The notes below the pieces were generated by a model. It ran no database searches. It worked only from the letters and a program-made list of their open reading frames with translations, and had not been told where the DNA came from. Position numbers and translations under genes: made by a program. Of a stretch of 54,358 nucleotides of DNA, positions 1-54,336 are shown one piece after another. Position 1 is the stretch's first letter. Every line of letters begins with the position of its first letter. This stretch comes from a virus: IMG/VR virus record IMGVR_UViG_3300046703_000036, positions 1 through 54,358 of that record, one strand, 5' to 3'.

Positions 1-45
1 GAAGACATTGAATTGGTGACATCGGCCGAACCTATCAAATATTAA
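1..45 (+). CDS. C-terminal end of the 252-aa hypothetical protein (partial)
   Basis: The first 14 codons and TAA stop are identical to the last codons of the gene at 53371-54129. This is the 3' end of that gene, cut by the window start because the contig overlaps itself. It is not a separate gene. Confidence 0.9.
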   Translation, partial: EDIELVTSAEPIKY

Positions 46-1628: not shown

Positions 1629-1681
1629 GATATAACGATCATTAAGGCTTGTCGAGTTAGGCTATTTCTCGACACATGATT

Positions 1682-1783
1682 GGGGGGCATAGGACATGAA
1701 ACGGGAGCGGCTTTTAAATCGTGGTTAATTTCACCGACTTCCTCCCGCACACCCCGGGCGTTTTCACATGCTCCTATGCCTCC
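1682..1783 (+). repeat. Imperfect inverted repeat (large stem-loop)
   Basis: The left arm GGGGGCATAGGACATGAAACG pairs with the right arm CGTTTTCACATGCTCCTATGCCTCC when three bases of the right arm are bulged out. GGGAG (1703-1707) and CTCCC (1742-1746) can extend the stem inward. The region is far more GC-rich than the A/T-rich sequence after it. Confidence 0.55.
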
Positions 1784-1890
1784 GTCAACACGGGCCGGGA
1801 TGTTTAACCATTTTCCTCTCGGCCTCCTTTACGCTTAATCTATACTATTTTTACGTTTAACTAAAATATTTTCCTTAGAAGATTGATAAA

Positions 1891-1906
1891 ACTTTAACTT
1901 ATATCG
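1891..1906 (+). promoter_or_regulatory. Candidate archaeal TATA box for the portal/capsid operon
   Basis: ACTTTAACTTATATC is centred about 24 bases before the GTG start at 1923. No Shine-Dalgarno sequence lies between them, as expected for a leaderless archaeal transcript. Upstream sequence is A/T-rich. The call rests on position and composition only. Confidence 0.45.
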
Positions 1907-1922
1907 TCCTCCTATTTTATAT

Positions 1923-3404: not shown

Positions 3405-3556
3405 TGGTCGACTACATAATTGACACAACGCCCGAGGAACAGAGGGAGGCTTGGCGCGAGATGTTCAAGGCGCTTATGACGTACCCATATCGAGGGACGT
3501 ATTCTTACGATTATAGGGAGGGAGTTGAACTAAATGACAGAGAGCAAGGACGTTAA
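3404..3556 (+). CDS. Small hypothetical protein between portal and protease
   Basis: 50 residues. The ATG overlaps the portal stop (TAATG), AAGGAGGGG lies just upstream, and the frame overlaps the protease start by 23 bases. The predicted helix-rich sequence (TPEEQREAWREMFKALM) has no recognised family. Position suggests a minor head protein or simply a coupling ORF. Confidence 0.55.
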   Translation: MVDYIIDTTPEEQREAWREMFKALMTYPYRGTYSYDYREGVELNDREQGR

Positions 3557-5096: not shown

Positions 5097-5110
5097 AGGA
5101 GGTTTAGTAT

Positions 5111-6304: not shown

Positions 6305-6309
6305 TTAAG

Positions 6310-6340
6310 CTCCACTCTCCTTTATTTTTAGAGGAGGTAT
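6310..6340 (+). promoter_or_regulatory. SD-masking hairpin with T-tract after the capsid gene
   Basis: CTCTCC, a TTTATTTTTA loop and GAGGAGG can fold so that the Shine-Dalgarno sequence of the next gene is paired (TCTCC with GGAGG). The T-tract also resembles an archaeal T-rich terminator. Nearly the same element recurs at 7322-7346 with matched small deletions in both arms, which supports pairing. Confidence 0.5.
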
Positions 6341-6346
6341 AGCAAC

Positions 6347-6814
6347 ATGGGCAAATCAAACGTCTTACAAAACGTGGTTACGAAGGTTATTGACGTTGCA
6401 CAAACGCTGACAGCGAACGCGACGCATGCGAACTTGAGTCCGGCCTTGACGGTCGGAGTTCATAAGGAGTTCAATGAGGTCAAGGCAATATTCCCGTTTG
6501 TCGCAGCCGGAGCGGGCGGAACTAAGTCCGTCACGATAGAGATTCAAAGCGACACGGGAGCAGCGTCCGCATATCAAGCGGTCGCGACGTCAGTAGTCGG
6601 AACGGATGCGGGGCATGGTTATATCGCGACGACCGGGAACGGCGTTGCCGAAGTCTCTTGCAGCATGAACGATGTTAGAATCGGAGCGAATATTAAGGTC
6701 TATGTGCATTATCTCGGGACAAGCACCGACACATGCATAGGGCCGACACTGCTTCAATTCTACAACGCTCGAGAGGAGCCGCCCCTTAACGCGACCATGA
6801 CAACGTTAGCATAG
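6347..6814 (+). CDS. Capsid decoration-like protein (paralogue 1)
   Basis: 155 residues, beta-rich, Ala/Thr-rich, without membrane segment or cysteine motif. It shares the N-terminal pattern (N.V..K......TL) and the C-terminal pattern (hhL...AREEP) with the next gene, so the two are tandem duplicates. Position directly after the major capsid gene and the beta-rich composition suggest a capsid decoration or head-fibre protein; no known family was recognised. The SD GAGGAGG precedes the start. Confidence 0.6.
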   Translation: MGKSNVLQNVVTKVIDVAQTLTANATHANLSPALTVGVHKEFNEVKAIFPFVAAGAGGTKSVTIEIQSDTGAASAYQAVATSVVGTDAGHGYIATTGNGVAEVSCSMNDVRIGANIKVYVHYLGTSTDTCIGPTLLQFYNAREEPPLNATMTTLA

Positions 6815-6826
6815 GAGGTCTAAAGA

Positions 6827-7306
6827 ATGACGTGGAAAAGGAATTGTTTAAAGAATACAGTGACCAAGCTAATCGGAGCGTCAACGGCGCTTACGATCGG
6901 CGGAACAGTCACACACTCAAGCACTCCGTTCGACCTCGGCCTCGACAAGAAGTATTCGGGCGCTAAGATCATCTATTACGGAGCGCATACCGGGACGATC
7001 GCGCTTGACGTTCAAATGACTGTCAACACGGGGCCGACTAATGCACTCGCAACCGGAGCCGCAACGACAATAACGGCCAAGGGAACGGCTGTAAACACGG
7101 GTCACGCGGGCTCGGGAGGAACGGTTATTCTTGAGTCATACGTTGACTTCGCCGACCAACATATTGACCGATGGATCGGAGTCGATATATTAGCGACAGC
7201 CGGTTCGGGAACCGATGGATTAACGGGGATCATATTAATGGTTCTCGAAGCAGCGAGAGAGGAACCGACGTCAACGCTTGGTACAAATACCATGACGACG
7301 GCGTAA
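6827..7306 (+). CDS. Capsid decoration-like protein (paralogue 2)
   Basis: 159 residues and a tandem paralogue of 6347-6814. Both open with a basic N-terminal segment (NCLKNTVTKLIGASTAL here, NVLQNVVTKVIDVAQTL before) and close with AREEP plus a Thr-rich tail. The SD GGAGG is 10 bases upstream. The likely role is a second decoration or head-surface protein, inferred from position and duplication. Confidence 0.6.
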   Translation: MTWKRNCLKNTVTKLIGASTALTIGGTVTHSSTPFDLGLDKKYSGAKIIYYGAHTGTIALDVQMTVNTGPTNALATGAATTITAKGTAVNTGHAGSGGTVILESYVDFADQHIDRWIGVDILATAGSGTDGLTGIILMVLEAAREEPTSTLGTNTMTTA

Positions 7307-7321
7307 GGAGAGCAACAAACT

Positions 7322-7346
7322 CTCCACTCCTTTATTTTTGGAGGTG
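7322..7346 (+). promoter_or_regulatory. Second copy of the SD-masking hairpin/T-tract
   Basis: CTCC-TTTATTTTT-GGAG forms a perfect 4-bp stem with a 9-base T-rich loop, and the right arm is the SD of the gene at 7351. Compared with 6310-6340, the left arm lacks TC and the right arm lacks a matching purine pair. It lies 15 bases after the stop of the second paralogue. Confidence 0.5.
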
Positions 7347-7350
7347 AAGC

Positions 7351-7551
7351 ATGTCGACAACAACATGGACTATAACAGTCGAGACGACCGGCGTTCAAAT
7401 GGCCGCATACATCGCTATGCGATTAAATCAAGACGCTGTAACCGTAACGATCGAGCAAGCAGTACAAGAACTGCTCACTATGGGCGGCATAAATACAGCC
7501 GGGACAAGTTCGGGGCCGACGATCAAGCATCACGGCAACGACTTCCAATAA
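7351..7551 (+). CDS. Hypothetical small virion-region protein
   Basis: 66 residues starting at ATG 7351 with GGAGGTG 6 bases upstream. Thr-rich N-terminal strands are followed by a helix (IEQAVQELLTMGG) and a tail with HHGNDFQ. No family recognised. It lies in the decoration block, so may be a minor structural protein. Confidence 0.6.
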   Translation: MSTTTWTITVETTGVQMAAYIAMRLNQDAVTVTIEQAVQELLTMGGINTAGTSSGPTIKHHGNDFQ

Positions 7552-7564
7552 GGGGCGCGATATA

Positions 7565-7783
7565 ATGCAACTTATAACATTTTGCCAAGAATACAGCGGC
7601 TATCATAAAGGGGCAAGCCAATACTTTGAGGAAGTTCTTGCGGCTCAACTAATAGCGGCGGGAATTGCCAAGGACGCATACATGAAAGAAGTCGAGGAAC
7701 CCGAGGTCAAGGTCGAGGAGAAAAAGGCCGTTGAGAAGCCTATCAAAGACAAGATGATCCGGTCTCCTAAACGTAAGAAGTAA
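7565..7783 (+). CDS. Hypothetical protein with charged tail
   Basis: 72 residues. The N-terminal half (FCQEYSGYHKGASQYFEEVLAAQLI) resembles the short 'FixG/Ig' linker-like or gpFI-like head proteins only in size. The C-terminal half is an alternating Glu/Lys tail. It starts at ATG 7565 with GGGGCG upstream. Function unknown; position suggests an assembly or structural accessory. Confidence 0.55.
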   Translation: MQLITFCQEYSGYHKGASQYFEEVLAAQLIAAGIAKDAYMKEVEEPEVKVEEKKAVEKPIKDKMIRSPKRKK

Positions 7784-19952: not shown

Positions 19953-20399
19953 ATGGCGGCAAATCCGCATAAAGGAGAAGTCGAGATCGACTTGAGAAAG
20001 TCAGTCTCAAAGAATCTACTGCAACCTCGCGACCGTAAGACGGTCTATCTCAAATTTTCGATGGAAGCAGTCGGGAACATTGAACGAGATATACGGCGGG
20101 AAGTCGGAGGCGACATCTCGGTCTTTGAAATACTGATGCGTCTAAGGAAATTCCCTTGGAAGATCAGCATACTCGAGACCGCTGTCATGCTTCAACACGG
20201 CTTGGCCGATCAATTCCCTTCAATGAGCCTTGAATTAGCTTATCGGATATTAGATATTCAAGAGCTTGGAGTGCTCCTCAGCACAATCTTAGAAGCTTTG
20301 AACGTTTCATTTGAGGGGGCCATGCCCGAGGCAGTTCAAAAAGAGTTAGACCAAGAGCCGTTCATTGAGACAGTCGAGGAGGGCGAAGGAAAAAAGTAA
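19953..20399 (+). CDS. Tail assembly chaperone (gpG-like)
   Basis: 148 residues from ATG 19953. It sits just before the tape measure gene, where siphoviruses encode the gpG chaperone that coats the tape measure during tail assembly. Helix-rich with an acidic, Glu-rich end (VEEGEGKK). The best SD (AAAAGGAG, 19929-19936) is 16 bases from this ATG but only 4 bases from an in-frame ATA at 19941, so translation may begin at ATA and add MRID. Its last codons contain the slippery heptamer described separately. Confidence 0.75.
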   Translation: MAANPHKGEVEIDLRKSVSKNLLQPRDRKTVYLKFSMEAVGNIERDIRREVGGDISVFEILMRLRKFPWKISILETAVMLQHGLADQFPSMSLELAYRILDIQELGVLLSTILEALNVSFEGAMPEAVQKELDQEPFIETVEEGEGKK

Positions 20400-20926
20400 C
20401 TCTGCTCGACGTCGAGGCAATTAAGAACGTCGGGCTCGGGCATTTATGCTTGAGTCATATCGAACTGTTTGCCTTGACATACTTCCAATTTATCGAGCTT
20501 TATAGAGGTTGGGAGGAACGACAAAAACATGACTCGATTAAAAGGGCCGAGATCATTGCGACTCTGTACAACGTTAACCGAATGGACGAGTCCTCGAAGG
20601 TCGTCGAGATCGCTGACATTCTCCCTTGGTATTCGGATTATGCCGGGAACGGAAGGGGAACCGAACAAGATGTAATAGGCTTTGAACTATCTCGTCCGAT
20701 AGATGAGAGCGTTCCGCAACTCGAGCGAGTCACTAAGCGGCTTCTTGAGGAATGGGGGAGGAATCCCAACATGCCTCGCGACGCCCCGGAGTGGATCGAC
20801 GCCGAGCAACATGCGCAGCAAATTCTCGGGCCGGGCGGATTGGAGGGCGACACGGTGATGCTGCAAGGGGTCAAGATTAAAAAAGCAGATCCTAAAATAT
20901 GGGGAGAGAAATTCCCCGATTGGTGA
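19953..20926 (+). CDS. Tail assembly chaperone fusion (gpGT-like) made by -1 frameshift
   Basis: Slipping back one base at AAAAAAG (20390-20396) joins gpG to a frame open from 20396 to the stop at 20926, giving about 324 residues. The downstream frame has no credible SD or start of its own: its first possible start (TTG 20450) has none. The T-like part contains SHIELFALTYFQFIELYRGWEERQ. G/GT frameshifting is conserved across long-tailed phages, where GT binds the tape measure. Confidence 0.8.
20390..20419 (+). promoter_or_regulatory. -1 programmed frameshift signal: A AAA AAG slippery site plus hairpin
   Basis: The heptamer A-AAA-AAG is in the correct phase (GGA AAA AAG TAA in the zero frame), followed by a 6-base spacer and a hairpin with CTCG/CGAG (20405-20408 with 20413-20416) extended by TG/CA around a bulged G. 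The zero-frame stop is the next codon. The design matches known bacterial and phage -1 sites such as dnaX. Confidence 0.8.
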
Positions 20927-26508: not shown

Positions 26509-28701
26509 ATGGTTGGAGGCCCGTTACGGATTGCAGCGCATGGAGGAATTGTCAGCGACGTCGGTTGGCTCAAGACTAAAGGTCTTGATGAGGTCGGCTT
26601 AGTTGTTTATAACGGCAATAATCCGTCTCCGGCGTTTATCAAGAATGCCGGGATTAAGTATGCTACTTTAAATCCTTGGAATGACTCGGGCGACCCGCCT
26701 TACAGCAACGGCGATCACTACGCGGGATATATGCAATCAATTAAATCGAACGGTTGGGACATGGTCGCGGGCGAAGGGCGAGGCGGAGACAACGTTCGCG
26801 TTTGTAATAATTATCTTTGGTATTGTAATTATGGAGGGATCGTCTCGGAGCAACAATATGATATGTACGCGTCCCCGTGGCTTCATCCTAAGAACGGGTC
26901 GCACGTTGACTATATTGAAACGTATAACAACGGCGGGGGGCTTGTCTTGGATTCGGCTTATAATTGCATTGCAGCCGCCAAGAACGCCGGATCGCAAGAG
27001 CTTGGGATATTGATAGGCGATTGGATGTGCTCGAGTAGAGGGATTGGGAGCGGAACATACATCGCATTTATTGACCGTTGTCGCAACGCCGGTCTCGCAG
27101 TTAATACTGCTCTATTTTGGTGCGGCTATAATTATGATATAACGTCTTCATTGAAAGGAAAATGCAATGAGGTCATGCAAGGATTGATAAATCATTATGG
27201 AATCCGACACGGGATTGGTTCGAGCGGCGGCGGAGGAGGCGGAACAACGCCGGTCACACCCGCACCAACTCCCGCACCCGGGACGGCCGGGAATTGTCCT
27301 TGTAAACATATATGGTGCGGGATCGTCGGAGCGCCGTCACTTTATACATTCACACAAACAAGCGCCGTCCCTATCGAACTCGGCGGGATACAAGGATGGG
27401 TCGACAACGCCGGGGGGTGGGTTCCCAACAAACCGGACGCGACAAGAATATCTATCGTTCAGAAGTCCCCAAACGGATCGCTTCAAACAATAGGAACAGT
27501 TACACCGGACGCAAAGGGCAACTTTAGAGCCTCGATAAAGGCTCCCGGGACGGGGACATATCACTATAACGCCAAGGGTGCGTCGGGCAATTGGGGCAAC
27601 GATTGTACAGTGGTTTGGCAGCAATTCGGAGCAAACCCGGCTCCGGGTTCCCCCGCGATAGACTTTGCGGGTTCGACTCCGGCCGCGTGTTCTCCAAATG
27701 GGAGCGACATCTCTGTCTTTGTAAGAGGGACAGACGCGGCAATATGGTTTAGAAGTTGGTATAGTGGATCATGGCATGATTGGACGAGCATCGGCGGTAT
27801 AACGGGAGCAATGACCGGCCCGGGCGCTGCTTCTTGGGGGAGTGGCCGCATGGACGTCTTCACGGGAGGAAGCAATAGCCACGTTTGGCATAAATTCAAT
27901 ACGTCGGGACAGTGGTCAGGTTGGGAGGATCTCAGCGGATTAATTACCTCGGATTGTGCGGCGACAAGCTCGGCATCGGGGCAATTGAGCGTCTTTGTTA
28001 GAGGGACGAACGGAGTTGTATATCACAAGAGATATGTCGGCGGCGCTTGGGGCTCTTGGGTCAGTATAACCGGACTTGTCAAAGAAGGGACTGCTCCGGC
28101 TGCTTGCTCATGGGGTGGAGAACGGATTGACGTCGTCGTAACGGGGACGGATAGCCACGTTTGGCATAATTCAACGGCCAACGGGACAACGTGGTCAGGT
28201 TGGGTCTCTATCGGAGGAACGACGGCGGCCTCTCCCGCGATCGCGACGCTCGGGAGTGGTCAACTCGCCGTATTTGTGCGGGGAACGGACGACGAGCTTT
28301 GGATGAAACAATATTCAGGCGGAGCATGGGGCGATTGGCTCGAGATGGGCGGGACGCTTGCATACGGGCCGGGTATTGGAGCTTGTGCAACGGCGACCGA
28401 ATATCACGTCTTTGTTATAGGAACGACGGGCTCCGTGTATCACACTTATGGATCGGCTGCTTGGACAGGTTGGCAAAACGTCGGGGGCAAAGTAGCTATA
28501 CCAGCGACGGAGCCCGAGATGGCGAGCGGCGGTTTGATTCCCGCGAACGATTCCGAGTCGATGGTTCCGCCGATCACGGTTCCCGACAAGGATGAGGATT
28601 TAACGTTGCCGCCGACCGATCCGGTTCCGACAACGCAACCGGAAGGGCTGACAGTGATATTGAGGGATCATAAAAAGAACTTAACGGAGGTTAATAAATG
28701 A
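26509..28701 (+). CDS. Tail-tip hydrolase-like protein with six-blade PLL-type lectin repeats
   Basis: 730 residues. Residues ~1-235 look like a TIM-barrel hydrolase (LVVYNGNNPSPAFIK, GWDMVAGEGRGGD, GILIGDWMC). A Gly/Pro linker and an Ig-like domain (~260-385) follow. Residues ~395-670 hold six ~45-residue repeats of type VFVRGTDxxxWxxxxxxWxxWxSxGG, the signature of PLL-like beta-propeller lectins that bind sugars. The N-terminal and repeat domains are shared with the gene at 38829. Likely binds and perhaps degrades a host-surface glycan; catalysis is unproven. Confidence 0.65.
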   Translation: MVGGPLRIAAHGGIVSDVGWLKTKGLDEVGLVVYNGNNPSPAFIKNAGIKYATLNPWNDSGDPPYSNGDHYAGYMQSIKSNGWDMVAGEGRGGDNVRVCNNYLWYCNYGGIVSEQQYDMYASPWLHPKNGSHVDYIETYNNGGGLVLDSAYNCIAAAKNAGSQELGILIGDWMCSSRGIGSGTYIAFIDRCRNAGLAVNTALFWCGYNYDITSSLKGKCNEVMQGLINHYGIRHGIGSSGGGGGGTTPVTPAPTPAPGTAGNCPCKHIWCGIVGAPSLYTFTQTSAVPIELGGIQGWVDNAGGWVPNKPDATRISIVQKSPNGSLQTIGTVTPDAKGNFRASIKAPGTGTYHYNAKGASGNWGNDCTVVWQQFGANPAPGSPAIDFAGSTPAACSPNGSDISVFVRGTDAAIWFRSWYSGSWHDWTSIGGITGAMTGPGAASWGSGRMDVFTGGSNSHVWHKFNTSGQWSGWEDLSGLITSDCAATSSASGQLSVFVRGTNGVVYHKRYVGGAWGSWVSITGLVKEGTAPAACSWGGERIDVVVTGTDSHVWHNSTANGTTWSGWVSIGGTTAASPAIATLGSGQLAVFVRGTDDELWMKQYSGGAWGDWLEMGGTLAYGPGIGACATATEYHVFVIGTTGSVYHTYGSAAWTGWQNVGGKVAIPATEPEMASGGLIPANDSESMVPPITVPDKDEDLTLPPTDPVPTTQPEGLTVILRDHKKNLTEVNK

Positions 28702-30305: not shown

Positions 30306-32312
30306 ATGACGGACGTAGTTATTGACGTGACTTGTATCGACTGCGAGTCGACCGAGGTCAGCGTGGCCCCGGTCATAGATTGGACGGGAATTGAGGATCA
30401 CACTTACGATGACCCGTCGATCGCACCGCTCGTAGAGAGTGAAGTCGTCGACCCGTTTATTGACTACGATCCAACGTTCTCCGGCCCGACGATCGAATGC
30501 GAAGCGAGCGTATGCGATCCCCGTGTCGCGTCCGATCATGGAATAGCGTCGATAGGCTCCGGGGCCGAGATGCTTTGGAGTAAGACAACTACATGGGCGG
30601 GGGGCATAGTCCCCGGCGACGGGAACGCTGTCGCTATCGCTCTCGGCGACACGGTTCACTTTGACGTCGATCAAGCGACTTACTTCGTCGGCCTTGATGG
30701 TCTCGTTGTTCACGGGACGCTTAAATTTATCACAAACGCCCCGGCAACCGGACATCCCGAACTCGACCCGGCAACACTCTCCCCTTGTCTCGCACTAAAA
30801 GACTCGACACAGGTCTCGGGCGAGGGGGCTCTTTATGTCGGGACTTCAACGACCGATCCGATCTCGGCTCCCGCTATCGGTGCGAATTATAGGGCGCTCT
30901 TAAGATGTTTGGGGACTGCTCCGCCGGGCGGCTTAATCGACGTCGGCGTATGTCACATGTATGGGTGGTTTGACACAATCAATTCAACGACGCTCGCAGT
31001 TGACCAAGCAACTCTCTCGACGACTATTACACTGACGGACAACCTCACGCTCACGGCCGGAGACACTATTATTATTGGAGCGGGAATTGACCAAGGAGTG
31101 TTTATCGAAGCGGCTGTCGGACGTTATACGGTCGCTAGTTATGACACAGCAACGAAGGTCGTCACGCTCACAGAAGCACTCACGGACGAGCGTCTTGCGG
31201 GAGACCCGGTCGCTCATATCTCACGGCCTATAAAGATCGAAGCAACACTCGCGGCCGCTGCGAATATCCCGCTCCTCGCGACGAGGATCGGCGTCTTCAC
31301 ACTCGAGGGCGTTTGGATCACGGGAGGGCTTCATGTCGCGAATACCTTACAAGACGATCACACACTCAACGCATGCACAGTAGACGGGAACTACATGCCC
31401 GCGTTCTATGGGAATACCGGGAACGTCATAATCTCAAACAGCACGTTCGTCGGCGGGCTCACTGATACGACGCATGGGGCTGCGATTGACAACATGCATG
31501 GAGAGGCATTCCTTGATACATGCGTGATCTTGGGAGGTGAGGTTGGAATATCCGATACAGCCGGAGCACAAGCAAAGGCCGTCACGATTCAAAACATGGC
31601 AACTGCTTGTCTCTCAGAGATACGGAGTTCTCTCTTTAAGAGCTGTATGATTCAAGGGTCGAACCTCGGATCGTTCAACGGCGGGGCAAATCAATATATC
31701 GATTGCACTTTGGACAATAACGTCGTCGACTTTGATTCCGAATATCAAGCGGTCACACATAGACTCACGCTCGGGAACCCGCTCAGTTTGGGGCTCCCGA
31801 TACAAACCTCCGAGATGCTTTGGTATAGTAATAACTCTTACGATCATAACCGGGAGCAAAGCACTCACCGGGTTTGGTGCGTGGGCGGCTATGCGTTTAT
31901 TCAAACGCTCGAGACGTACGCGGGGCTTCCGACTTGGGAGTTCGTCGTTCAAAATGCCGACTTGCCGATCTATTATGATACTCCGTTCATGGTCGTCGAG
32001 GGCCAAGCGTTCACAATCTCGGTCGCTATGAAAAAGTCATATCTTGGGGGGACAGCGGCATTCCAAATTATCGACCCGGCGGCCGATCCTCTGTTCGGAT
32101 TCGATGACGCTGCAATCGCTGAGATCAATCTCCCCGACGAGTCAGACCATTGGAGAGTCCTATCGTTGACATACTATCCGCAAGCGACGCAAACATTAAT
32201 CGCCCGGGTCTTGGCTCAAAACGTTGTCGCCGAGGGTAAAGTTCACGTACAACTCGGGGGTTTACGAGCTGTTCAGATAGTCGGAGACACGACAATTGTA
32301 GTGAATGTATAA
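30306..32312 (+). CDS. Tail spike with G8-like domain and beta-helix
   Basis: 668 residues. Residues ~1-85 are an acidic linker. Residues ~90-200 resemble the G8 domain: LWSKTTTWAGGIVPGDGNAVAI, LGDTVHFDVDQATYFVGLDGLVVHGTLKF. A parallel beta-helix follows (VIISNSTFVGGLTD, ACTVDGNYMPAFYG). The C-terminal ~150 residues form a beta-sandwich. G8 plus beta-helix is typical of glycan-binding or hyaluronidase-like proteins. GAGGAGG precedes the ATG. It is probably the second receptor-binding spike. Confidence 0.68.
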   Translation: MTDVVIDVTCIDCESTEVSVAPVIDWTGIEDHTYDDPSIAPLVESEVVDPFIDYDPTFSGPTIECEASVCDPRVASDHGIASIGSGAEMLWSKTTTWAGGIVPGDGNAVAIALGDTVHFDVDQATYFVGLDGLVVHGTLKFITNAPATGHPELDPATLSPCLALKDSTQVSGEGALYVGTSTTDPISAPAIGANYRALLRCLGTAPPGGLIDVGVCHMYGWFDTINSTTLAVDQATLSTTITLTDNLTLTAGDTIIIGAGIDQGVFIEAAVGRYTVASYDTATKVVTLTEALTDERLAGDPVAHISRPIKIEATLAAAANIPLLATRIGVFTLEGVWITGGLHVANTLQDDHTLNACTVDGNYMPAFYGNTGNVIISNSTFVGGLTDTTHGAAIDNMHGEAFLDTCVILGGEVGISDTAGAQAKAVTIQNMATACLSEIRSSLFKSCMIQGSNLGSFNGGANQYIDCTLDNNVVDFDSEYQAVTHRLTLGNPLSLGLPIQTSEMLWYSNNSYDHNREQSTHRVWCVGGYAFIQTLETYAGLPTWEFVVQNADLPIYYDTPFMVVEGQAFTISVAMKKSYLGGTAAFQIIDPAADPLFGFDDAAIAEINLPDESDHWRVLSLTYYPQATQTLIARVLAQNVVAEGKVHVQLGGLRAVQIVGDTTIVVNV

Positions 32313-38429: not shown

Positions 38430-38586
38430 GGAGGAGTGGTCTAGCGGAACGATTCTTGGCGAAGGCATGCTCATCTGTGGTTTAATGAACAGATCAAACG
38501 TTGCAGCGTACACAGCGCGGGTCGACGCGGGTGCGTGGGCATGCCCGGCGGTTCAAGAGACAAGGGTTCAACTCCCTTCTCCTCCA
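38430..38586 (+). tRNA. tRNA-like gene with a large insertion in the anticodon loop
   Basis: The acceptor stem GGAGGAG/CTCCTCC is perfect with A73. The T-arm AAGGG-TTCAACT-CCCTT fits the consensus GTTCRANYC. The D-arm has AGCGGAA between three base pairs. CUUGG pairs with UCAAG as an anticodon stem. Between these lies an ~85-base insert with its own stem (GGCATGC/GCATGCC) and inner hairpin (ATCTG/CAGAT), as in archaeal tRNA introns. The anticodon cannot be assigned, because no U33 is visible at the simple junction. No CCA is encoded. Confidence 0.55.
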
Positions 38587-38828
38587 CTTTTAACGAAAAT
38601 TATATGCCTTAGAGGCTTCATATTTAAACCCGGTTGGACGAGGTGAGTAGTTATATAACAGTGAGCATACCCAATATAGCATGTCGACGGAGCAAAAGCC
38701 ATAATTCTTTCACCAATCAACGGCTTGTTTTACGTCCTATCTCTGTCGACCCTCACCTATGTTCTCCTTTTAGTATATTACTATTAGGGTATTACCATTA
38801 GGTATATAACAAAAAGCGGAGGCTATCT
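38587..38828 (+). other. Intergenic region with repeated operator-like sequence
   Basis: A/T-rich and without a gene. It contains TTATATAAC (38653-38661), a T-rich tract after the tRNA-like gene, two GTCGAC sites (38682, 38737) and the tandem TATTAC(T/C)ATTAGG repeat described separately. It probably holds the promoter for the gene at 38829. Confidence 0.5.
38771..38810 (+). promoter_or_regulatory. Promoter with tandem 14-base direct repeat
   Basis: TATTACTATTAGGG (38776-38789) is followed by TATTACCATTAGG (38790-38802), one mismatch in 13, and then TATATAAC. Upstream TAGTATATTA is a second TATA-like site. The repeats overlap or abut both TATA candidates, so a bound protein could control transcription of 38829. 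Confidence 0.5.
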
Positions 38829-39836
38829 ATGGCGATATGGTTGGGGGTCGGAGGCGGTGCGTGGAGCGTCAACGAAGCAAACTGCAAGGCTCTTTTTGAC
38901 TTAGGCGCGAGAGACGTTCAAGCGGTCATGCCCGATTTAAACGTGCATGCGGCCGAACTCGCAGCTATTAAAAAATTTGGTATGACGGCGACATCAGATA
39001 TTGAGGTTCCCTTATGGGTTAATACGGGAATGAACCCGAACGTCGACATCTCATGGGCAAAGCCGCAACTTCAAGCACAAAAGAACGCGGGTTGGCAGTA
39101 CTTCTCAAGTGAGGGTTTGGGGCGGGGCCAAGTCGATGTAATACGCTCGGTCGCTCCTTTTTTGAACTATGGTTCCGAGAACGGGGCCAATATGTACGCG
39201 GGACAATATAATCACGCGACCGACTCGCACTATGCGAACCTTTTGGAATCTTATCACAAGTGGGCGATCAATGACTATTACGCGAGCGCAGCGATCGCCA
39301 AACAGAACTCGCCGAGGTTTGGAATCACGCTCATGATGTATGCGGCCGACCTCGAGACGGACATCAATGCACTCTTAAACTATATCGACAAAGTTGGGAA
39401 CGTTCAAGAGGTCTTATTATGGTGCGGGCTCAATGACACGGTCATGAAGGTCTTTAGCTCTCCATGGATAGACATAGTCAAAGCAATTAAAGCAAAATAC
39501 GGATTCAGAACCGACACTCCTTGGGCGGCTGTTACACCTCCGCCTCCGCCTCCGCCGCCTCCACAAGACGTCATTCTCAAAGCCGATGCTTATACGTTTG
39601 TTAGAGGAACGAACTCGGCCGTATATGTTAAAGGGCTGGTCAATGGTAAATGGACGCCCGCTTGGACAAGCATCGGCGGAATTGCGACGGGCGCTCCTCA
39701 GCAAACAAAAGCACCCGACGGAACGGTCTTTGTCTTTGTCCGAGGAAGCGACGGGGCTCAATGGTATAAGTCAGTTGACCCGACGACCGGGAAGTTCTCG
39801 GCGTGGGCGACCTTGAGCGGATTATTAGCACCCTAA
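38829..39836 (+). CDS. Hydrolase-like protein with two PLL-type lectin repeats (paralogue of the tail-tip protein)
   Basis: 335 residues. Residues ~1-230 form a TIM-barrel-like domain related to that at 26509 (GWQYFSSEGLGRGQVD, APFLNYGSENGANMYA, VLLWCGLND). A poly-Pro linker (~238-246) leads to two PLL-type repeats (VRGTNSAVYVKGL...WTSIGG; VRGSDGAQWYK...WATLSG). It has its own promoter, away from the tail genes, so may be a released hydrolase or endolysin rather than a structural protein. GGAGG precedes the ATG. Confidence 0.6.
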   Translation: MAIWLGVGGGAWSVNEANCKALFDLGARDVQAVMPDLNVHAAELAAIKKFGMTATSDIEVPLWVNTGMNPNVDISWAKPQLQAQKNAGWQYFSSEGLGRGQVDVIRSVAPFLNYGSENGANMYAGQYNHATDSHYANLLESYHKWAINDYYASAAIAKQNSPRFGITLMMYAADLETDINALLNYIDKVGNVQEVLLWCGLNDTVMKVFSSPWIDIVKAIKAKYGFRTDTPWAAVTPPPPPPPPPQDVILKADAYTFVRGTNSAVYVKGLVNGKWTPAWTSIGGIATGAPQQTKAPDGTVFVFVRGSDGAQWYKSVDPTTGKFSAWATLSGLLAP

Positions 39837-40290: not shown

Positions 40291-40747
40291 GCGACGCGAG
40301 TTCTATACGCGCATGTCTCAAGGAGAAGACCTATGCGACGTCGTCCGGTCTATATCGGCGAAGTACGGAGTCACCGACAACCGACTCTATCACGATTGGA
40401 AAGACCGGGGGACTTGGGGCGACTATGTCCTTATCGAATTCGAGGAGGAATTCATAGTTCAAGACTACCTCCAAGAGATTCGCGAGATCGAGAAGACCCT
40501 TTGGGAAATAGCGCTCAACTCTCCCGACGATAAGTCCCGCATTGCAGCACTCGCACAACTCAAGGATATTAAGTTTAAGCGGCTTACAGCGAACCAAGAA
40601 CTCGGACGCATACACAAAGAGCCGGTCAAGATACAGATACAAGAACACATCGACCGGATATATTCGACGATACAAGAGGTCGCGGGGGACGACAAGGTTC
40701 TCCAAGGCCGTATAATAGACAAGATGTTGTATGAGCGTGGCAATTAA
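40253..40747 (+). CDS. terS: Terminase small subunit
   Basis: 164 residues directly before the large terminase. Residues ~25-55 form a helix-turn-helix (VVRSISAKYGVTDNRLYHDWKDRGTW) and the rest is helical, with KSRIAALAQLKDIKFKRL, as in small terminase oligomerisation domains. The SD AAAGGAGGAGGTG is very strong. It should recognise viral DNA for packaging. It overlaps the ATPase gene by 17 bases. Confidence 0.8.
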   Translation: MANVKPQAKLDNRRREFYTRMSQGEDLCDVVRSISAKYGVTDNRLYHDWKDRGTWGDYVLIEFEEEFIVQDYLQEIREIEKTLWEIALNSPDDKSRIAALAQLKDIKFKRLTANQELGRIHKEPVKIQIQEHIDRIYSTIQEVAGDDKVLQGRIIDKMLYERGN

Positions 40748-41567
40748 AGATATAGGGGCAATACCTCCACAAACGCCGAGGATAGACAACCCGACTCTCG
40801 AGGACTTAGTCGCACTAAGCAAGAGTCCGGTTCACTTCGCCCGGGCGGTCGGGTTCCCGAACTTAGACCCGTGGCAAGAGGAAGTCCTCAACTCTGACAG
40901 CAACCGCGTGATCTTGAATTGTTGCCGACAATCGGGCAAGAGTGCAATGGCTTCGATTATCGCTATCACGCATGCACTCTACACGCCCGGGTCAATGGTA
41001 ATAATAATCTCGCACACGTTACAGCAAGCGGGCGAGACATTCCGCAAGGTTCACGACTACTATAAACGAGTCGCCCGCCCGGTGATAAGTATAACGGAGT
41101 CCGTTCACCGATTAGAACTATCGAACGGGTCTCGGGTGGTCACACTTACGGGCAAGGCTCCCGACTCTATTCGAGGGTTCTCAAACGTCTCTCTCCTTAT
41201 CGTCGACGAGGCTTCGCAAGTCCCCGACGAGTCCTATCACGCCGCGAGACCAATGCTCGCCGTCAGCGAGGGCCGGATCATCTTGCTATCGACCCCTCAC
41301 GGGAAGCAAGGCTTTTTCTATGACACGTGGGCGAATAAGGAAGGCTGGCTCAAGATCGAGATTAACGCCGACCAAGTCCCGAGGTTCACAAAAGCGTTTA
41401 TTTGGGATGAGAAGATGACTATGGTCGGTTGGTTCTTTAGGCAAGAATATTACAACGAATTCGCCGAAGGCATAACAAGCGTCTTTAGAGCAGAGGATAT
41501 TAAGGCGGCTCTCAATCATCCCGAGCTTAAAGTGTTAGATATAGACATGAGTCTTGATGACCTATGA
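40731..41567 (+). CDS. terL: Terminase large subunit, ATPase half
   Basis: 278 residues: only the N-terminal motor domain of TerL. Walker A is CRQSGKSAM (~65-73), Walker B LLIVDEAS (~155-162), and the coupling motif LSTPHG follows near 186-191. The protein stops after VLDIDMSLDDL, where a normal TerL would continue into its nuclease domain. The nuclease is encoded in the second gene downstream. No frameshift path joins them: a separate zinc-finger gene lies between. Confidence 0.92.
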   Translation: MSVAIKDIGAIPPQTPRIDNPTLEDLVALSKSPVHFARAVGFPNLDPWQEEVLNSDSNRVILNCCRQSGKSAMASIIAITHALYTPGSMVIIISHTLQQAGETFRKVHDYYKRVARPVISITESVHRLELSNGSRVVTLTGKAPDSIRGFSNVSLLIVDEASQVPDESYHAARPMLAVSEGRIILLSTPHGKQGFFYDTWANKEGWLKIEINADQVPRFTKAFIWDEKMTMVGWFFRQEYYNEFAEGITSVFRAEDIKAALNHPELKVLDIDMSLDDL

Positions 41568-41728
41568 TAAATCAATCAAATCAATCCGTCAAAAATTGTA
41601 TAACATGCGGGAATCTCCGACTCCTTGATGAGTCTTATATATGCATGGCAGGGGAGGAACGCCCCGAATTAAAAGACATGCTCGGCGAGTGTCCGCAATG
41701 GAAGCCGTTTAGAGGGGACGCTTCTTAA
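41564..41728 (+). CDS. 54-residue zinc-finger protein inside the split terminase locus
   Basis: Overlaps the ATPase stop (ATGA) and the nuclease start (TAATG). Cysteines at positions 12, 15, 27 and 43 give CxxC...C...C, a likely single zinc site. Translational coupling to both terminase halves suggests that it is co-produced and could bridge them, which is speculation. Confidence 0.7.
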   Translation: MINQSNQSVKNCITCGNLRLLDESYICMAGEERPELKDMLGECPQWKPFRGDAS

Positions 41729-42495
41729 TGCCGAGATTGTCTTGGATGCCGGGCGATCCGTTTGACGTCGAGGCGCTCTATGACGACCTTGACGCTCCTA
41801 GGAAAAAGGCCCGGGACGACGAACTCATGGAGAAGTCGACCGAATGGAGGACGACCGAATACGGGAACTATAACAAAAGCATCTTTGTCGGCGTTGACCT
41901 TGGCAAAAAGTCCGACTATACGGCGATCGTCTTCTTGTGTCCCTTCTTACCGATCAATCCCGAGGAAGATCAAACCCGGTTCGTTTATCATATTTCAAAG
42001 ATCGACCGGCTCCCGCTCGAGACCCCTTATCCTATTGTCGCGAGGCTGCTCCGCAAGATCAATAAGCAGCTCCTCAAACATCCGCACGTCAATTATGTTT
42101 ACTACGTCATAGATGAGGGGGGCGTCGGAACGGCCGTCGCCGATCAGGTTATCGAGCTTATTCCAAGCGCCGACATTTATCGCGTTACACTTACCGGGGG
42201 GCTCCGTCCTAAATGGCAAGACCAAAGGAACGTCAGTCTCCCAAAGCCACAAATGGCGTCGACATTGATCGCGTTGTTTGAGTCGCGGCGCTTATGGGTA
42301 GCTCCCGACTTAAAAAATACAGTCGACGAACTAGAGAGGGAACTCATGACATACGAGAGGAAGATCACAGCGGCCGGACACGATCAGTTCGGCGCTATGA
42401 AAATTGGCGAGCATGACGATATTGCTTCGGCAATCGGACTCGCTGCTTGGATTGCGGAGGACTTACAAGGCGGGAGTGTCCCGCTTATATGGTGA
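41728..42495 (+). CDS. terL: Terminase large subunit, nuclease half
   Basis: 255 residues with the RNase H-like nuclease fold of TerL: IFVGVDLGKKSDYTAIVFL (first catalytic Asp ~57), a middle YYVIDEGGVGTAVADQ with second Asp/Glu ~126, and HDDIASAIGLAAW with the third acidic pair near ~238. Residues 1-50 form a linker with SWMPGDP. It cuts concatemeric DNA at packaging ends. Together with the ATPase half it would equal an ordinary ~530-residue TerL. Confidence 0.9.
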   Translation: MPRLSWMPGDPFDVEALYDDLDAPRKKARDDELMEKSTEWRTTEYGNYNKSIFVGVDLGKKSDYTAIVFLCPFLPINPEEDQTRFVYHISKIDRLPLETPYPIVARLLRKINKQLLKHPHVNYVYYVIDEGGVGTAVADQVIELIPSADIYRVTLTGGLRPKWQDQRNVSLPKPQMASTLIALFESRRLWVAPDLKNTVDELERELMTYERKITAAGHDQFGAMKIGEHDDIASAIGLAAWIAEDLQGGSVPLIW

Positions 42496-42504
42496 GGTGA
42501 TAGC

Positions 42505-42666
42505 ATACAACAAAAAACAAAATGGCGGTTTGAGGTCGTAAATATCCCGCCTAAAAAGGTCGAAGTTCCCAAGGACGAACAACATATAAAGGAATTCTCC
42601 AAACAAATGAGGGAGCTTCGCGAGTGGAATAGACGACTTAAAGAATCAAGGAGGAGAAGATTATAG
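42505..42666 (+). CDS. 53-residue basic protein with apparent ATA start
   Basis: GAGGTGAT lies 3 bases upstream of an in-frame ATA at 42505; the frame is then open for 53 codons with no ATG/GTG/TTG near the N terminus (first ATG at codon 36). The sequence is plausible as a protein: TKWRFEVVNIPPKKVEV followed by a charged helix ending RLKESRRRRL. Its TAG stop overlaps the ATA of the protease (ATAG), like an ATGA junction. Confidence 0.55.
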   Translation: MQQKTKWRFEVVNIPPKKVEVPKDEQHIKEFSKQMRELREWNRRLKESRRRRL

Positions 42667-43514
42667 AACGAAAAGGTTTAGGGTGGAGGAAGCAACTTCC
42701 CGACCCAAAAGATTATAAATTTACGGCAAGGCCCGAACAACTCGCGGCTATCCCGACGAGTGCGGATCTAAGGGCGGGCGGTTCCCCAATAAAAGACCAA
42801 GGCCCGACGTCCTCATGCACCGGGCAAGCGGCGGCGTCTCTGTTTGAGTGGCATCAAAAGGCTAAGCACGGGAGCTTCACTCCGGCGTCGGTGCGTTTTA
42901 TTTACAAAGAGAGCCGGGATCTCGAGGGCATCACGGGCGACGAAGGGTCAACGCTGAGAGCGACAGCCAAGGTCATGGCCGATGAGGGGGTTGCTCCGAG
43001 TGCTTTATTCCCTTGGAATCCGAGCCGAATAGACGAGGAGCCGAACGCCGACGTCAAAGCAGCGGCCATGAAGCAGCAAGTCACGAATTATTATGGCGTC
43101 AACGGATTGACCGACCTCAAGGCGGCTCTCGGAGTCGTGCAAATGCCCGTCATGATCGGGTTCACGTGCTTCTATAATCCGAACGACGACAACGCTCCGT
43201 CCGTATTTAATCCCGGCCCCGGAGGTTTGATTCCAATTCCAAACCTCACGACCGACAAGGTTGCGGGAGGTCACGCCGTCGAGGCATGCGGCTTTAACGA
43301 CGCCGGGGCCTATGTAACAATCAAGAACTCTTGGGGCGAGACATGGGGGGAAAACGGTTACGGAAGGCTCCCCTATTGGTATTGGAATAAGGAACTTGTC
43401 GACGATTGTCAGCTCATAGCCGAGGAGGAAGACTTGAATCCGCCGCTCCCGCCGACTCCCGATCCGACTCCTAAGACATTATGTCAAAAGATTAAGGAGT
43501 GGCTAACAGCATGA
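42663..43514 (+). CDS. Papain-like (C1) cysteine protease with non-canonical start
   Basis: 283 residues from ATA 42663; ATT 42660 is an alternative. The N terminus LPDPKDYKF...DLRAGGSPIKDQGPTSSCTGQAAAS is the family signature, with Cys52; His is in AGGHAVEACGFND (~204) and Asn in IKNSWGETWG (~222). From the first ATG/GTG/TTG (42891) the protein would lack the catalytic Cys. A strong SD, AAGGAGGAG, sits 3-6 bases before ATT/ATA. C1 proteases in phages act on other proteins; here it may aid maturation or lysis of a proteinaceous cell layer. Confidence 0.82.
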   Translation: MERKGLGWRKQLPDPKDYKFTARPEQLAAIPTSADLRAGGSPIKDQGPTSSCTGQAAASLFEWHQKAKHGSFTPASVRFIYKESRDLEGITGDEGSTLRATAKVMADEGVAPSALFPWNPSRIDEEPNADVKAAAMKQQVTNYYGVNGLTDLKAALGVVQMPVMIGFTCFYNPNDDNAPSVFNPGPGGLIPIPNLTTDKVAGGHAVEACGFNDAGAYVTIKNSWGETWGENGYGRLPYWYWNKELVDDCQLIAEEEDLNPPLPPTPDPTPKTLCQKIKEWLTA

Positions 43515-43648: not shown

Positions 43649-44442
43649 TCGACAACGAGACCGCCGAGGGGATCAACTTCTCGGCGCTTTGGCTCAGTGA
43701 TCGCGAGTTATATAAGCAGATACTTAGGGACAACGCGGCGGCATATTTTAAGACTCCCGAGGAGCCCGCTCTATTGGAGGCGATTGATCGTCTTATCGAC
43801 GACCTCTCCAAGGACGGGCCTCCCGAGTATGTCATAGCCGACGTCGTCATTGACGGCGGGCCGGGTTCAATCAATAACCTCCTCTGTTCAGATTGTCCCG
43901 CGACGTGTTGTCTTGAGAGCAACTATATCAGCGTCGGGAACGGCGACCTTCGGGCAATAGCTAAGTATCTCGGCATGCCGTGGAAAAAGTGTGCGAAAAA
44001 GCATTTAAGGCCGACGTCCGGGGAGTTCCGTGAGTGGTTCTATGAGAAGACCAAAGGCAAACCCGAGCCTTGGATTCTAAGGAACGTCGACCCTTGTGAG
44101 TTCTTAGTCGACGGGCGTTGTCAAATATACCCGGTTCGGCCGAACGGCTGTCGATGGTACCCGCTTATATGGAAAAAGCCCGACGGCTATGGCGTGGAGA
44201 TACATCAGGTTTGTCGCTATCCACTCAACATAATAATCTCCGAGATCGTCGGTCAATTCGAGCCGAAGCATTGGAAAGATCCGCAACCTTGGATGCACTT
44301 CATAAGGAAGCGGGCCGCATATACCTTTGAGACAGAGGGCAAGAAGCCCGGCTTAACACAAGAGGAACGAATCGAGTGCTATAAGAAGGGGAACGAGTCT
44401 ATATGGAGGAGGGTTACGAATGAGAGAAGATATGACAAATAG
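43645..44442 (+). CDS. YkgJ-type cysteine cluster protein (large)
   Basis: 265 residues. The YkgJ/UPF0153-type pattern is clear: CSDCPATCCLES (~79-90), DPCEFLVDGRCQIYPVRPNGCRWYP (~152-176) and a last Cys in VCRYPLN. This family is proposed to bind zinc or iron. An N-terminal ~75 residues are extra. A smaller member lies at 44742. Their role in a virus is unknown. Confidence 0.78.
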   Translation: MIDNETAEGINFSALWLSDRELYKQILRDNAAAYFKTPEEPALLEAIDRLIDDLSKDGPPEYVIADVVIDGGPGSINNLLCSDCPATCCLESNYISVGNGDLRAIAKYLGMPWKKCAKKHLRPTSGEFREWFYEKTKGKPEPWILRNVDPCEFLVDGRCQIYPVRPNGCRWYPLIWKKPDGYGVEIHQVCRYPLNIIISEIVGQFEPKHWKDPQPWMHFIRKRAAYTFETEGKKPGLTQEERIECYKKGNESIWRRVTNERRYDK

Positions 44443-44575
44443 GATCTCTGAGGAATGGGGCGACCCTAAAGAGGAGCAGGAAGGCTCGAAAGTAGCGATT
44501 GTTCTCTTGTCATTTGCGTTTATTGTCGGCATTCTATTCGACCATTATTTTATAATTGGTTATTTACACTTATAG
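44420..44575 (+). CDS. Small membrane protein, 51 aa
   Basis: ATG 44420 with GGAGGAGGG upstream, overlapping the previous gene end. A charged N-terminal half precedes one membrane helix (VAIVLLSFAFIVGILF). No family recognised. Confidence 0.55.
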   Translation: MREDMTNRISEEWGDPKEEQEGSKVAIVLLSFAFIVGILFDHYFIIGYLHL

Positions 44576-44587
44576 GGAGGTGAGCGT

Positions 44588-44740
44588 GTTAGTCGAATCA
44601 AGCCGAATAAGCGAGATTGTCATTTATGCAAGCACTTTATCACTCCCGCGTCATGCGAGATAGACAGGGAATGCGATGGCGTCGGGTGGTGCGAGAAGTT
44701 TGTTAACTACTACATTGAACGAATCTTAACCGGGGGATAG
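44588..44740 (+). CDS. Cys-rich protein, ~50 aa, start uncertain
   Basis: The frame read here (VSRIKPNKRDCHLCKHFITP ... CEIDRECDGVGWCEKF) is a convincing zinc-type protein with CxxC and two later Cys pairs, but has no ATG/GTG/TTG. SD GGGAGGTGAG is placed 4 bases before an in-frame GTT at 44588. The GTG at 44586 is in another frame and gives only 25 codons. Either a near-cognate start or a one-base assembly error is present. Confidence 0.45.
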   Translation, partial: VSRIKPNKRDCHLCKHFITPASCEIDRECDGVGWCEKFVNYYIERILTGG

Positions 44741-46474: not shown

Positions 46475-46969
46475 ATGCCCGGGACATCTCCTTGGGAGAC
46501 GACCCTCGTCGGTCGTATCAACGACTATTTTAAAGACACGCAACAACCCGGGATAGCGTTCCGACTCAAGCAAAGCCACTTTTATACGCAATACGTCGAC
46601 GTCCTTGTCGATCACGGGAGCCGGGCGTTCTATCTCGCTATTGAGTGTAAGTCGATTGATCCCAAGAAGACCAAGAAGTTCTATTTTAGTTCATGGACGG
46701 TCGACAAGAAAGGAGTGCATCAAATAGACCGGATCTCTGAGTTCTTGGAGAAGGGACAACGCTTCGGAATCCTTGCAGCCGAGATACGACGCGGCCAAGG
46801 ACACACTAACGAGGTCTATCTCGCCCCTTGGCATCATGTTAAGTATGCTTATGACAACGGCGTCAAAGGGTTCTCTCCGAAGGATCTCGCCGAGAAATAT
46901 CCCCGACTGCTCAAGGATGAGGGCGTCCTTAATCTTGAGTATTGCTTGCATTGCCTTCGACAGTTTTGA
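46475..46969 (+). CDS. PD-(D/E)XK nuclease, RecU/Holliday-resolvase-like
   Basis: 164 residues. The catalytic core is visible: YVDVLVDHGSRAFYLAIECKSID, with Asp ~32 and Glu-x-Lys at the IECK segment (~54), then a long helical region with a conserved-looking WTVDKKGVHQIDRI. The length and layout resemble archaeal and phage Holliday junction resolvases, which process branched replication products. A restriction-like single-site nuclease cannot be excluded. Confidence 0.72.
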   Translation: MPGTSPWETTLVGRINDYFKDTQQPGIAFRLKQSHFYTQYVDVLVDHGSRAFYLAIECKSIDPKKTKKFYFSSWTVDKKGVHQIDRISEFLEKGQRFGILAAEIRRGQGHTNEVYLAPWHHVKYAYDNGVKGFSPKDLAEKYPRLLKDEGVLNLEYCLHCLRQF

Positions 46970-52509: not shown

Positions 52510-52667
52510 GCGTAACGTATCTTTTAAGCGTCGCGATAAGTGGTTTATCATTTGGAGTCGGAGCTTACTTTGTCACATCAAAGCTGCTCTATGCGTTCTT
52601 ATTTATGGGCGTATCGCTCGCGGCCTTACTCTATGCGAAGCGCCTCGAGGAGGGTTTAATTGAATGA
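52506..52667 (+). CDS. Small membrane protein, 53 aa
   Basis: Two hydrophobic segments with a polar C terminus (AKRLEEGLIE). ATG overlaps the previous stop and the stop overlaps the next start. Probably works with its neighbour; function unknown. Confidence 0.5.
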   Translation: MSVTYLLSVAISGLSFGVGAYFVTSKLLYAFLFMGVSLAALLYAKRLEEGLIE

Positions 52668-52861
52668 CAAGTGGAGCAATGTCTAACTCAAACAAGTCGC
52701 GCAATTGGAGGGAGCGCAAGGTTCACGACGGTTATTTGCGCGTCACCATTTGGCTCGAGCCCGATTATGCTGCAAGACTCTCTCAGTATGCCTTTAAAGA
52801 GATGGTTCCCAAAGGAGTCGCGGCCGAGAAGCTCATTAAGAAGTGTTTGGAGGCTAAATGA
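52664..52861 (+). CDS. RHH-type DNA-binding protein, 65 aa
   Basis: A basic N-terminal arm leads to RVTIWLEPDYAARLSQYAFKEMVPKGVAAEKLIKKCL, the strand-helix-helix pattern. GAGGAGGG precedes the ATG. Stop overlaps the next ATG. Confidence 0.6.
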   Translation: MTSGAMSNSNKSRNWRERKVHDGYLRVTIWLEPDYAARLSQYAFKEMVPKGVAAEKLIKKCLEAK

Positions 52862-52956
52862 CTTTTATTGAACTTCTTGAATGGCTTGAGGAGCAAGGAG
52901 TACACATTAGAACGGTTTGCTTATGGTCTAAAGAAAAAGAAGGCGAAATAAAATGA
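52858..52956 (+). CDS. Tiny hypothetical protein, 32 aa
   Basis: ATG overlaps the previous stop. Ends with KEKEGEIK, whose DNA (AAAAAGAAGGCGAA) recurs at the end of the next gene and at the right window end. Function unknown. Confidence 0.42.
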   Translation: MTFIELLEWLEEQGVHIRTVCLWSKEKEGEIK

Positions 52957-53093
52957 CTAATTGTCCTAGATGCGGTCAAGAAATATTTACAACGCTTTCA
53001 TTAACTGATTGGGTGGGTAATACCATTATCCAGCCGTGTTGTTATAATTGTTACCAAGCGGAACGGGTAAGGCAAGAAAAAGAAGGCGAATAA
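52953..53093 (+). CDS. Small zinc ribbon protein, 46 aa
   Basis: CPRC (4-7) and CCYNC (29-33) form a ribbon. The 3' end AAAAGAAGGCGAATAA supplies the SD-like GAAGG for the next ATG. Codons look more A/T-rich than neighbours. Confidence 0.55.
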   Translation: MTNCPRCGQEIFTTLSLTDWVGNTIIQPCCYNCYQAERVRQEKEGE

Positions 53094-53378
53094 ATGACAG
53101 CCGGACAAGTATCAGCACAAGAAGGCAAGCAACGACACAAGGTAAAACATACGAGCGTCACACTCACAAGAGACCGCTATAATAAGGTCGTTGAATACGC
53201 AAGAGAGGAGAATATCTACATAACGCAAGCACTCGAGCGCATAGTAGACCAATACTTCGAGGTTAGACAAGGCTTTAAGGAACTTCAAGAAGCGTCAGAA
53301 GCGGAGTATAAGGCGAAGTTACGTCAGCGCGAGGCATGGCTAACTGACTATCTTAACAAGAGGCGACAAAATGAGTGA
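53094..53378 (+). CDS. RHH-type protein with coiled-coil tail
   Basis: 94 residues. HTSVTLTRDRYNKVVEYAREENIYITQALERIVDQYF fits an RHH fold at residues ~19-55; a charged helix follows. Overlaps the next gene by eight bases. Likely a DNA-binding regulator. Confidence 0.6.
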   Translation: MTAGQVSAQEGKQRHKVKHTSVTLTRDRYNKVVEYAREENIYITQALERIVDQYFEVRQGFKELQEASEAEYKAKLRQREAWLTDYLNKRRQNE

Positions 53379-54129
53379 CGGAGCATACACATACTTCCTT
53401 AAGAAGTATTTCGACGTTTGGAAAGACGAATGGAAGCTCGATTTAGACAAGGCCGACGTAAAGGTCATGCTCTTAAAGCCCGGTTACAATCCGAGTTGGA
53501 CTCGCGACAAGTTCGTCGAGCAGATCAAAAAGCATGAGATCAAGAAGGGCATGGTCAAGAAAAAGGTTCCGCAAGAGGTCAAACGCGATCCGCTTACATA
53601 TTTCAGTCATTGGACGACAGTGGACAAGACCGAGGAAGTTGAAATAGAAGTCCCAAACGGCTACGACGAAGGCGGCAAGAGCATCGGCCCGCTTGGCTCA
53701 TATCAAAGGCAGCAACGTTGTTTAAATGTATTTGACGAGTGGGAAGATTGGACGGTCACAACACTATATGCTAAAAAGGAGGCCGTCGGTTGGGGCATGG
53801 ACGACACGCTCGAGGAATACCCGAACAAAGCAACGTTAGTCGTCGGCTCAATGGTCTTCTATCTAAACAACGGGACGGACAAGAACTCAGTATTAATCAC
53901 TCACTGCGAACTTGGCCATAAATGCGAGAACGGATCGTTTAACATAGTGTTTAATCCCCGGGGAATCGCAAAAGCAAGCATCTTAAACGGCGACAAGAAG
54001 ACGCTCTTTGCGGATAGGGGCATTCATTGGACACAAGGTCGGGGATGTCGTAAAAAGAAAAGGGAGTATTCACCGGAAGCCATGGAAGACATTGAATTGG
54101 TGACATCGGCCGAACCTATCAAATATTAA
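53371..54129 (+). CDS. Hypothetical protein, 252 aa
   Basis: Starts at ATG 53371 overlapping the upstream stop. Residues 1-80 are basic and helical (KKYFDVWKDEWKLDLDKADVKVMLLKPGYN); residues ~85-250 are beta-rich with a few cysteines (HCELGHKCENGSF). The last 15 codons recur at 1-45 because of the terminal overlap. No recognised family. Confidence 0.65.
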   Translation: MSDGAYTYFLKKYFDVWKDEWKLDLDKADVKVMLLKPGYNPSWTRDKFVEQIKKHEIKKGMVKKKVPQEVKRDPLTYFSHWTTVDKTEEVEIEVPNGYDEGGKSIGPLGSYQRQQRCLNVFDEWEDWTVTTLYAKKEAVGWGMDDTLEEYPNKATLVVGSMVFYLNNGTDKNSVLITHCELGHKCENGSFNIVFNPRGIAKASILNGDKKTLFADRGIHWTQGRGCRKKKREYSPEAMEDIELVTSAEPIKY

Positions 54130-54336
54130 CACAAAACACGAATCATAAGCGAGTGATTTGTACAATACGACACAGATATTAGAACAACGCGAAAAGGACA
54201 CGGTGAGGAACTATGAGCATAAAGCGAAGGATTGACAACGAAATAGGCGAGATAGAGTTCGTTGTCTTTGTATTGTCGCTTGGCATAGTCGAGGCATACG
54301 ACTATCTTAAGAGCAAGGCAACGGGCAAGAAATGGA
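54085..54336 (+). repeat. Right copy of imperfect terminal direct repeat
   Basis: This is the partner of bases 1-250, identical for the first 127 bases and then diverged. Beyond it the two copies part completely: the right end runs into AGAAAAAGAAGGCGAATA, which also occurs at the end of the small gene at 52953-53093. That shared stretch may be where the assembler stopped. Confidence 0.9.

Follow-up and report, generated by a model that had tools for sequence, protein, structure and literature searches.

How are two neighbouring viral genes translated when neither offers a canonical start codon from which its conserved protein could be made? The question is raised by a stretch of viral DNA of 54,358 nucleotides (IMG/VR record IMGVR_UViG_3300046703_000036; hereafter the window), in which a 53-codon gene (ORF1) is followed directly by the gene for a papain-like protease. 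Most gene callers consider ATG, GTG and TTG only; NCBI translation table 11 lists ATT, ATC, ATA and CTG as possible starts, but not GTC or GTT. The virus, a tailed one, and its relatives are known from metagenomes only. Related viral records were gathered through alignments of the portal protein, the nuclease half of the split terminase large subunit (TerL-C) and the head-morphogenesis (MuF-like) protein, and are 50-70% identical to the window in structural proteins. On the evidence set out below, we think it likely that ORF1 and the protease are real, functional genes that start at ATA (42505 and 42663), at positions set by the SD and, as at most such sites in this lineage, after termination of the upstream gene, with Met-tRNAi accepted despite the mismatch.

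Results

The genes and SDs described here between 41728 and 44740 lie on the + strand of the window. TerL-C (41728-42495; Pfam Terminase_6C, E=3.6e-6) has homologs in G009, G013, G015, G025 and G030. Its TGA stop (42493-42495) runs into the SD of ORF1, GAGGTGAT (42494-42501), which lies 7 nt before the putative start ATA (42505-42507), as a sequence-only reading of the window had proposed. ORF1 (42505-42666) ends at TAG (42664-42666). That reading had also held that ORF1 lacks a usual start, and this stands for everything ahead of the conserved core: the stop-to-stop frame (42496-42666) contains a single canonical codon, ATG 42607, near its 3' end. Since this ATG sits within the conserved core, it cannot start the conserved protein.

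The C1A protease would be encoded at 42663-43514. Its ORF (42642-43514; a 283-codon frame) follows an in-frame stop TAA (42639-42641) and opens AGA ATC AAG GAG GAG AAG ATT ATA GAA CGA. We confirmed the earlier observation that no ATG, GTG or TTG occurs in this frame until GTG 42891, downstream of the catalytic Cys, and extended it to CTG. The SD, AAGGAGG (42648-42654), precedes both proposed starts, its GGAGG lying 5 nt before ATT 42660 and 8 nt before ATA 42663-42665, which overlaps the ORF1 stop to give ATAG. The spacings of 7 nt (ORF1) and 8 nt (protease) from GGAGG or its equivalent are within the range of this genome's canonical genes. The + strand of the window has 17 copies of GAGGTGA and the - strand one; for AAGGAGG the counts are 14 and one. 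Most copies stand ahead of genes, and the strand bias of GAGGTGA argues that these motifs are not chance matches.

We scanned all SD-like runs of at least 6 in the window for those 5-8 nt ahead of a genuine gene frame lacking a canonical start. Outside large ORFs, ORF1 and the protease were the clear cases. Several startless hits of an automatic survey were dropped: some were out-of-frame shadows, and others had an ATG barely within the limit of homology (window 7493, G002 7337). A fourth candidate, ORF 20369-20926, was rejected as a -1 frameshifted tail chaperone: 19953-20926 is a tail-chaperone pair that resembles lambda G/T in having a probable programmed -1 frameshift (A AAA AAG near 20390), and the second ORF of the pair is startless in G002, G013 and G025 too.

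Both genes appear to be real, as judged from their relatives. The protease matches Pfam Peptidase_C1 (E=3.2e-11) and phrog_16701 (E=8.2e-20), and its catalytic set (Q46, C52, H204 and N222) is invariant across seven aligned proteins. The alignment to the solved structure 3OIS begins at residue 3 after the ATA; conservation starts just after ATA 42663, upstream of all canonical codons in the frame. The ORF1 product is 41% identical (12/29) and 79% similar (23/29) to its G030 homolog, with E=1e-8 in this single pairwise comparison, and small genes of the ORF1 family follow TerL-C in G009, G013, G015 (E=0.001), G025 and G030. For neither gene could the conserved N-terminus be encoded from any canonical start.

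The position of the protease start is indicated most directly by G030, which has near-identical records in G031 and G032 (three assemblies). There, as in the window, ORF1 (with ATG) is directly followed by the protease. The G030 junction, AAACGGAGGAGAAATCAATGAGAG, reads GGAGG, 8 nt, ATG, A, an ATGA overlap; the window junction, TCAAGGAGGAGAAGATTATAGAACG, reads GGAGG, 8 nt, ATA, G. The ATAG therefore stands, by this alignment, at the exact place of the ATGA overlap in G030, in keeping with the earlier suggestion that the two are analogous. This synteny favours ATA 42663 over ATT 42660 as the putative protease start.

Relatives nevertheless have canonical codons at these two genes. The protease starts with ATG in G013, G009/G010, G015 and G030, and ORF1 with ATG or GTG in all relatives examined; at neither gene did we find a near-cognate codon kept across relatives. 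The sequence-only reading had said that such codons in relatives, combined with reads showing an indel or substitution at this site, would count against it; of that pair the relatives supply the first. The other observation it had named, a protease reduced to a dead remnant, is not what we see: with its catalytic residues kept, the protein looks intact.

The canonical starts of the relatives, and the fact that ATG to ATA is a single transition, give some weight to the view that the ATA codons arose through errors in sequencing or assembly, or mark transient losses of the start in genes that this virus no longer requires. The site is covered by one assembly only: a second record of the virus (L004) covers just the ends of the window, and no near-identical copy of the 42-45 kb stretch was found in viral contigs, phages or GTDB genomes. 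However, L004 is 100% identical to the window over 7.6 kb, and the 283-codon protease frame retains its catalytic residues. Furthermore, ATGA and ATAG differ by two changes, which together preserve the ORF1 stop. This view must also account for three conserved startless genes in one genome, all with otherwise intact frames, and for equivalent cases in relatives that match between assemblies. We consider it improbable.

The third of these genes is the least certain case in the window. A small membrane protein gene with an ATG start (TM1; 44420-44575, stop TAG 44573-44575) directly precedes a Cys-rich gene of 51 codons (putatively 44588-44740), and by inspection TM1-like membrane genes with RIxEW-DP occur in G009, G015 and G025. 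The Cys-rich product is 45% identical to its homologs in G009, G013 and G025, all ATG-started; the window ORF (44576-44740) contains no ATG, GTG or TTG at all. Its SD, GGAGGTGA (44576-44583), would place the start at GTT 44588, 7 nt after GGAGG, whereas alignment to the G009 homolog pairs its ATG with ATC 44597.

Similar sites occur in the relatives, at other genes. In G030, TerL-C itself appears to start at ATA within a further ATAG overlap, in a stretch that is the same in all copies examined; a conserved Trp is residue 6 there, as in the ATG-started TerL-C of the window (MPRLSW). A 173-aa gene homologous to window 46475-46969 would start at ATA in G030 and at ATC in G014/G015. Its first codons are ATA-CCA-GGA-ACT-TCA-CCC in G030 and ATG-CCC-GGG-ACA-TCT-CCT in the window, and its product begins ISGSSPF in G014/G015 against MAGYSPF in G025. 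The ATC of G014/G015 is overlapped by an HNH nuclease gene, whose last coding bases double as the AGGAGG, and the ATG may have been replaced by insertion. G009 and G015 carry HNH endonuclease-like genes as insertions in the group of small genes that separates TerL-C from the MuF-like gene. The near-cognate sites of G030 are the same in all three assemblies, and G014 and G015 agree at 99.96%. Such independent cases, several of them seen in two or three assemblies, bear out the earlier judgement that sequencing error is unlikely.

The G030 173-aa gene also needs a +1 shift at TCA CCC TTT C GAA, seven codons past the ATA (reverse strand, ~30950-30985 of the oriented record, L101 copy). The site is present in all copies examined and represents either programmed +1 frameshifting or an indel that has become fixed.

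Only one gene is non-canonical in every relative examined. TM2 is a membrane peptide of 29 codons, a length shared by three virus types, and has different codons at its putative start, ATT (G009), CTG (G013) and GTC (G025-G027), each 7 nt after GGAGG. The GTC and GTT starts are proposed less certainly than the others.

Nine starts were thus placed in the lineage, by homology to an ATG or else as the in-frame codon 7 nt after GGAGG; five of the nine were placed through the SD, and all tests were post hoc. With that proviso, the second base is U in all nine (NUN; background 0.26, P=6.5e-6, post hoc) and six are AUH (background 0.067, P=6.4e-6, post hoc), four of them ATA. Compared with canonical starts, the SD runs are longer (median 8 vs 6, p=0.002) and their duplexes stronger (-16.1 vs -10.7 kcal/mol, p=0.001), both comparisons being partly circular given the five SD-placed starts. 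At eight of the nine sites the stop of the upstream gene lies within 17 nt. A control survey of 159 conserved ORFs in T7, T3, SP6 and KP32 found no real startless gene: of nine raw hits, by inspection, eight were short fragments coinciding with larger genes and one was T3 gene 9, which has an annotated canonical start.

In a further alternative, the startless frames would be extensions of their neighbours. Readthrough would carry ribosomes past the TerL-C TGA into ORF1 and past the TM1 TAG into the Cys-rich frame, or a -1 frameshift would join ORF1 to the protease. In favour of this, ORF1 and the 44576 ORF are in frame with the preceding gene, the protease is -1 relative to ORF1, and the tail chaperones of this lineage use -1 frameshifting. 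Yet no slippery heptamer occurs in the ORF1/protease overlap (42642 to 42666), unlike the A AAA AAG near 20390, and G030 has an ATG at the same protease position. Nor does an extension predict strong SDs 7-8 nt ahead of the near-cognate codons, or a TM2 frame that varies relative to the upstream gene (the same in G009, another in G013 and G025). Readthrough and frameshifting are disfavoured because they are neither conserved nor needed, and we rate this alternative as a little less probable even than error or start loss.

A reading of AUA as methionine, through an altered code or a modified tRNA, would make ATA an ordinary Met start and suits the four ATA codons among the nine starts, but we reject it with near certainty, since internal ATA behaves as Ile, aligning with Ile/Val/Leu as ATT and ATC do (I 45%, M 6%, n=356; ATG with M 38%), and the remaining starts are ATC, ATT, CTG, GTC and GTT.

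Discussion

Near-cognate initiation at ATA, which we favour for ORF1 and the protease, can be pictured as follows. A strong SD would hold the ribosome so that the near-cognate codon occupies the P site. In eight of the nine lineage cases the ribosome would just have ended the upstream gene, within ~17 nt, making re-initiation probable. The initiator Met-tRNA (anticodon CAU) would then be accepted despite a third-base, and sometimes a first-base, mismatch. The ancestral starts would have been ATG or GTG, the near-cognates arising by single-base changes. Output would probably fall below the ATG level, which may be tolerated or may serve to keep the products scarce. The exact start codon, Met-tRNAi use, re-initiation and lowered expression are inferences.

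A third-base mismatch to AUG is a mild departure. In contrast, GTT and GTC mismatch AUG at two bases and would be very weak starts. Host initiation, judged from these viral codons, probably tolerates start codons that ordinarily work very poorly. A bolder proposal is that start selection in the host is relaxed, such that SD and position define the start and viral genes, including a terminase subunit, drift among NUN codons. We regard this as possible but doubtful; if true, the same pattern would be expected in host genes. A host search of GTDB genomes through portal and TerL-C gave no match, and the archaeal host that had been supposed is not supported.

The nearest parallels are bacterial. 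In S. aureus, infC, ccpN, citZ (AUA) and cvfC1 (AUU), with extended SDs, give roughly 10-30% of AUG output (PMC13009471). These genes, like E. coli infC and pcnB, combine a near-cognate AUA or AUU start with a properly spaced strong SD and a conserved protein. They are, however, host genes with roles in regulation or metabolism, and ribosome profiling has proved their starts, whereas ours are viral, several per lineage, variable in codon and predicted from sequence. The junctions likewise resemble ATGA termination-re-initiation, with the same four-base stop/start overlap and an SD inside the upstream gene, but in the window, and also at TerL-C of G030, ATA replaces ATG. Among the works cited in PMC2268962, initiation at non-canonical codons past a stop is described with ribosome recycling factor inactivated, and the precedent for non-canonical re-initiation given there is confined to that situation. 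With the phrog_16701/C1A phage peptidases (e.g. Thermoanaerobacterium phage THSA-485A; Xylella 3OIS) the window protease shares the full catalytic domain and an N-terminal GxGW...LPDxxD segment; those records and the homologs within the lineage have canonical starts, unlike the window protease.

While AUA and AUU starts with a strong SD are already known in bacteria, their repeated occurrence across a lineage of viruses, with a packaging gene among the cases, appears to be new: a phage-related search of the open-licence literature found no earlier report, a weak indication of novelty. If correct, a natural lineage of prokaryotic viruses repeatedly uses near-cognate starts, even for an essential packaging gene, and start-codon fidelity and coupled re-initiation could be tested by comparison rather than with engineered reporters. 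Gene callers limited to ATG, GTG and TTG would then miss or truncate real genes; the protease, for example, would lose its catalytic Cys.

Other features of the genome

The terminase large subunit is encoded in two parts (40731-42495), an ATPase gene and a nuclease gene, which a small Cys-rich gene (41564-41728) separates; the layout is similar in G015 and G030. Some relatives' proteases carry a C-terminal repeat domain (L101 3767-4963, L061 4161-5393) that resembles window 38829-39836 and 26509-28701; the window protease has a Pro-rich tail in its place. At 38430-38587 there is a tRNA-like gene (ARAGORN tRNA-Arg gcg) that contains an 86-nt insert and was not found in the relatives; its predicted loop has no U33, which makes the splice sites or the identity doubtful. 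Finally, in record L004 (1-1717) window 52618-54335 (99%) runs straight into window 1-7598 (100%), which shows the genome to be either circular or terminally redundant.
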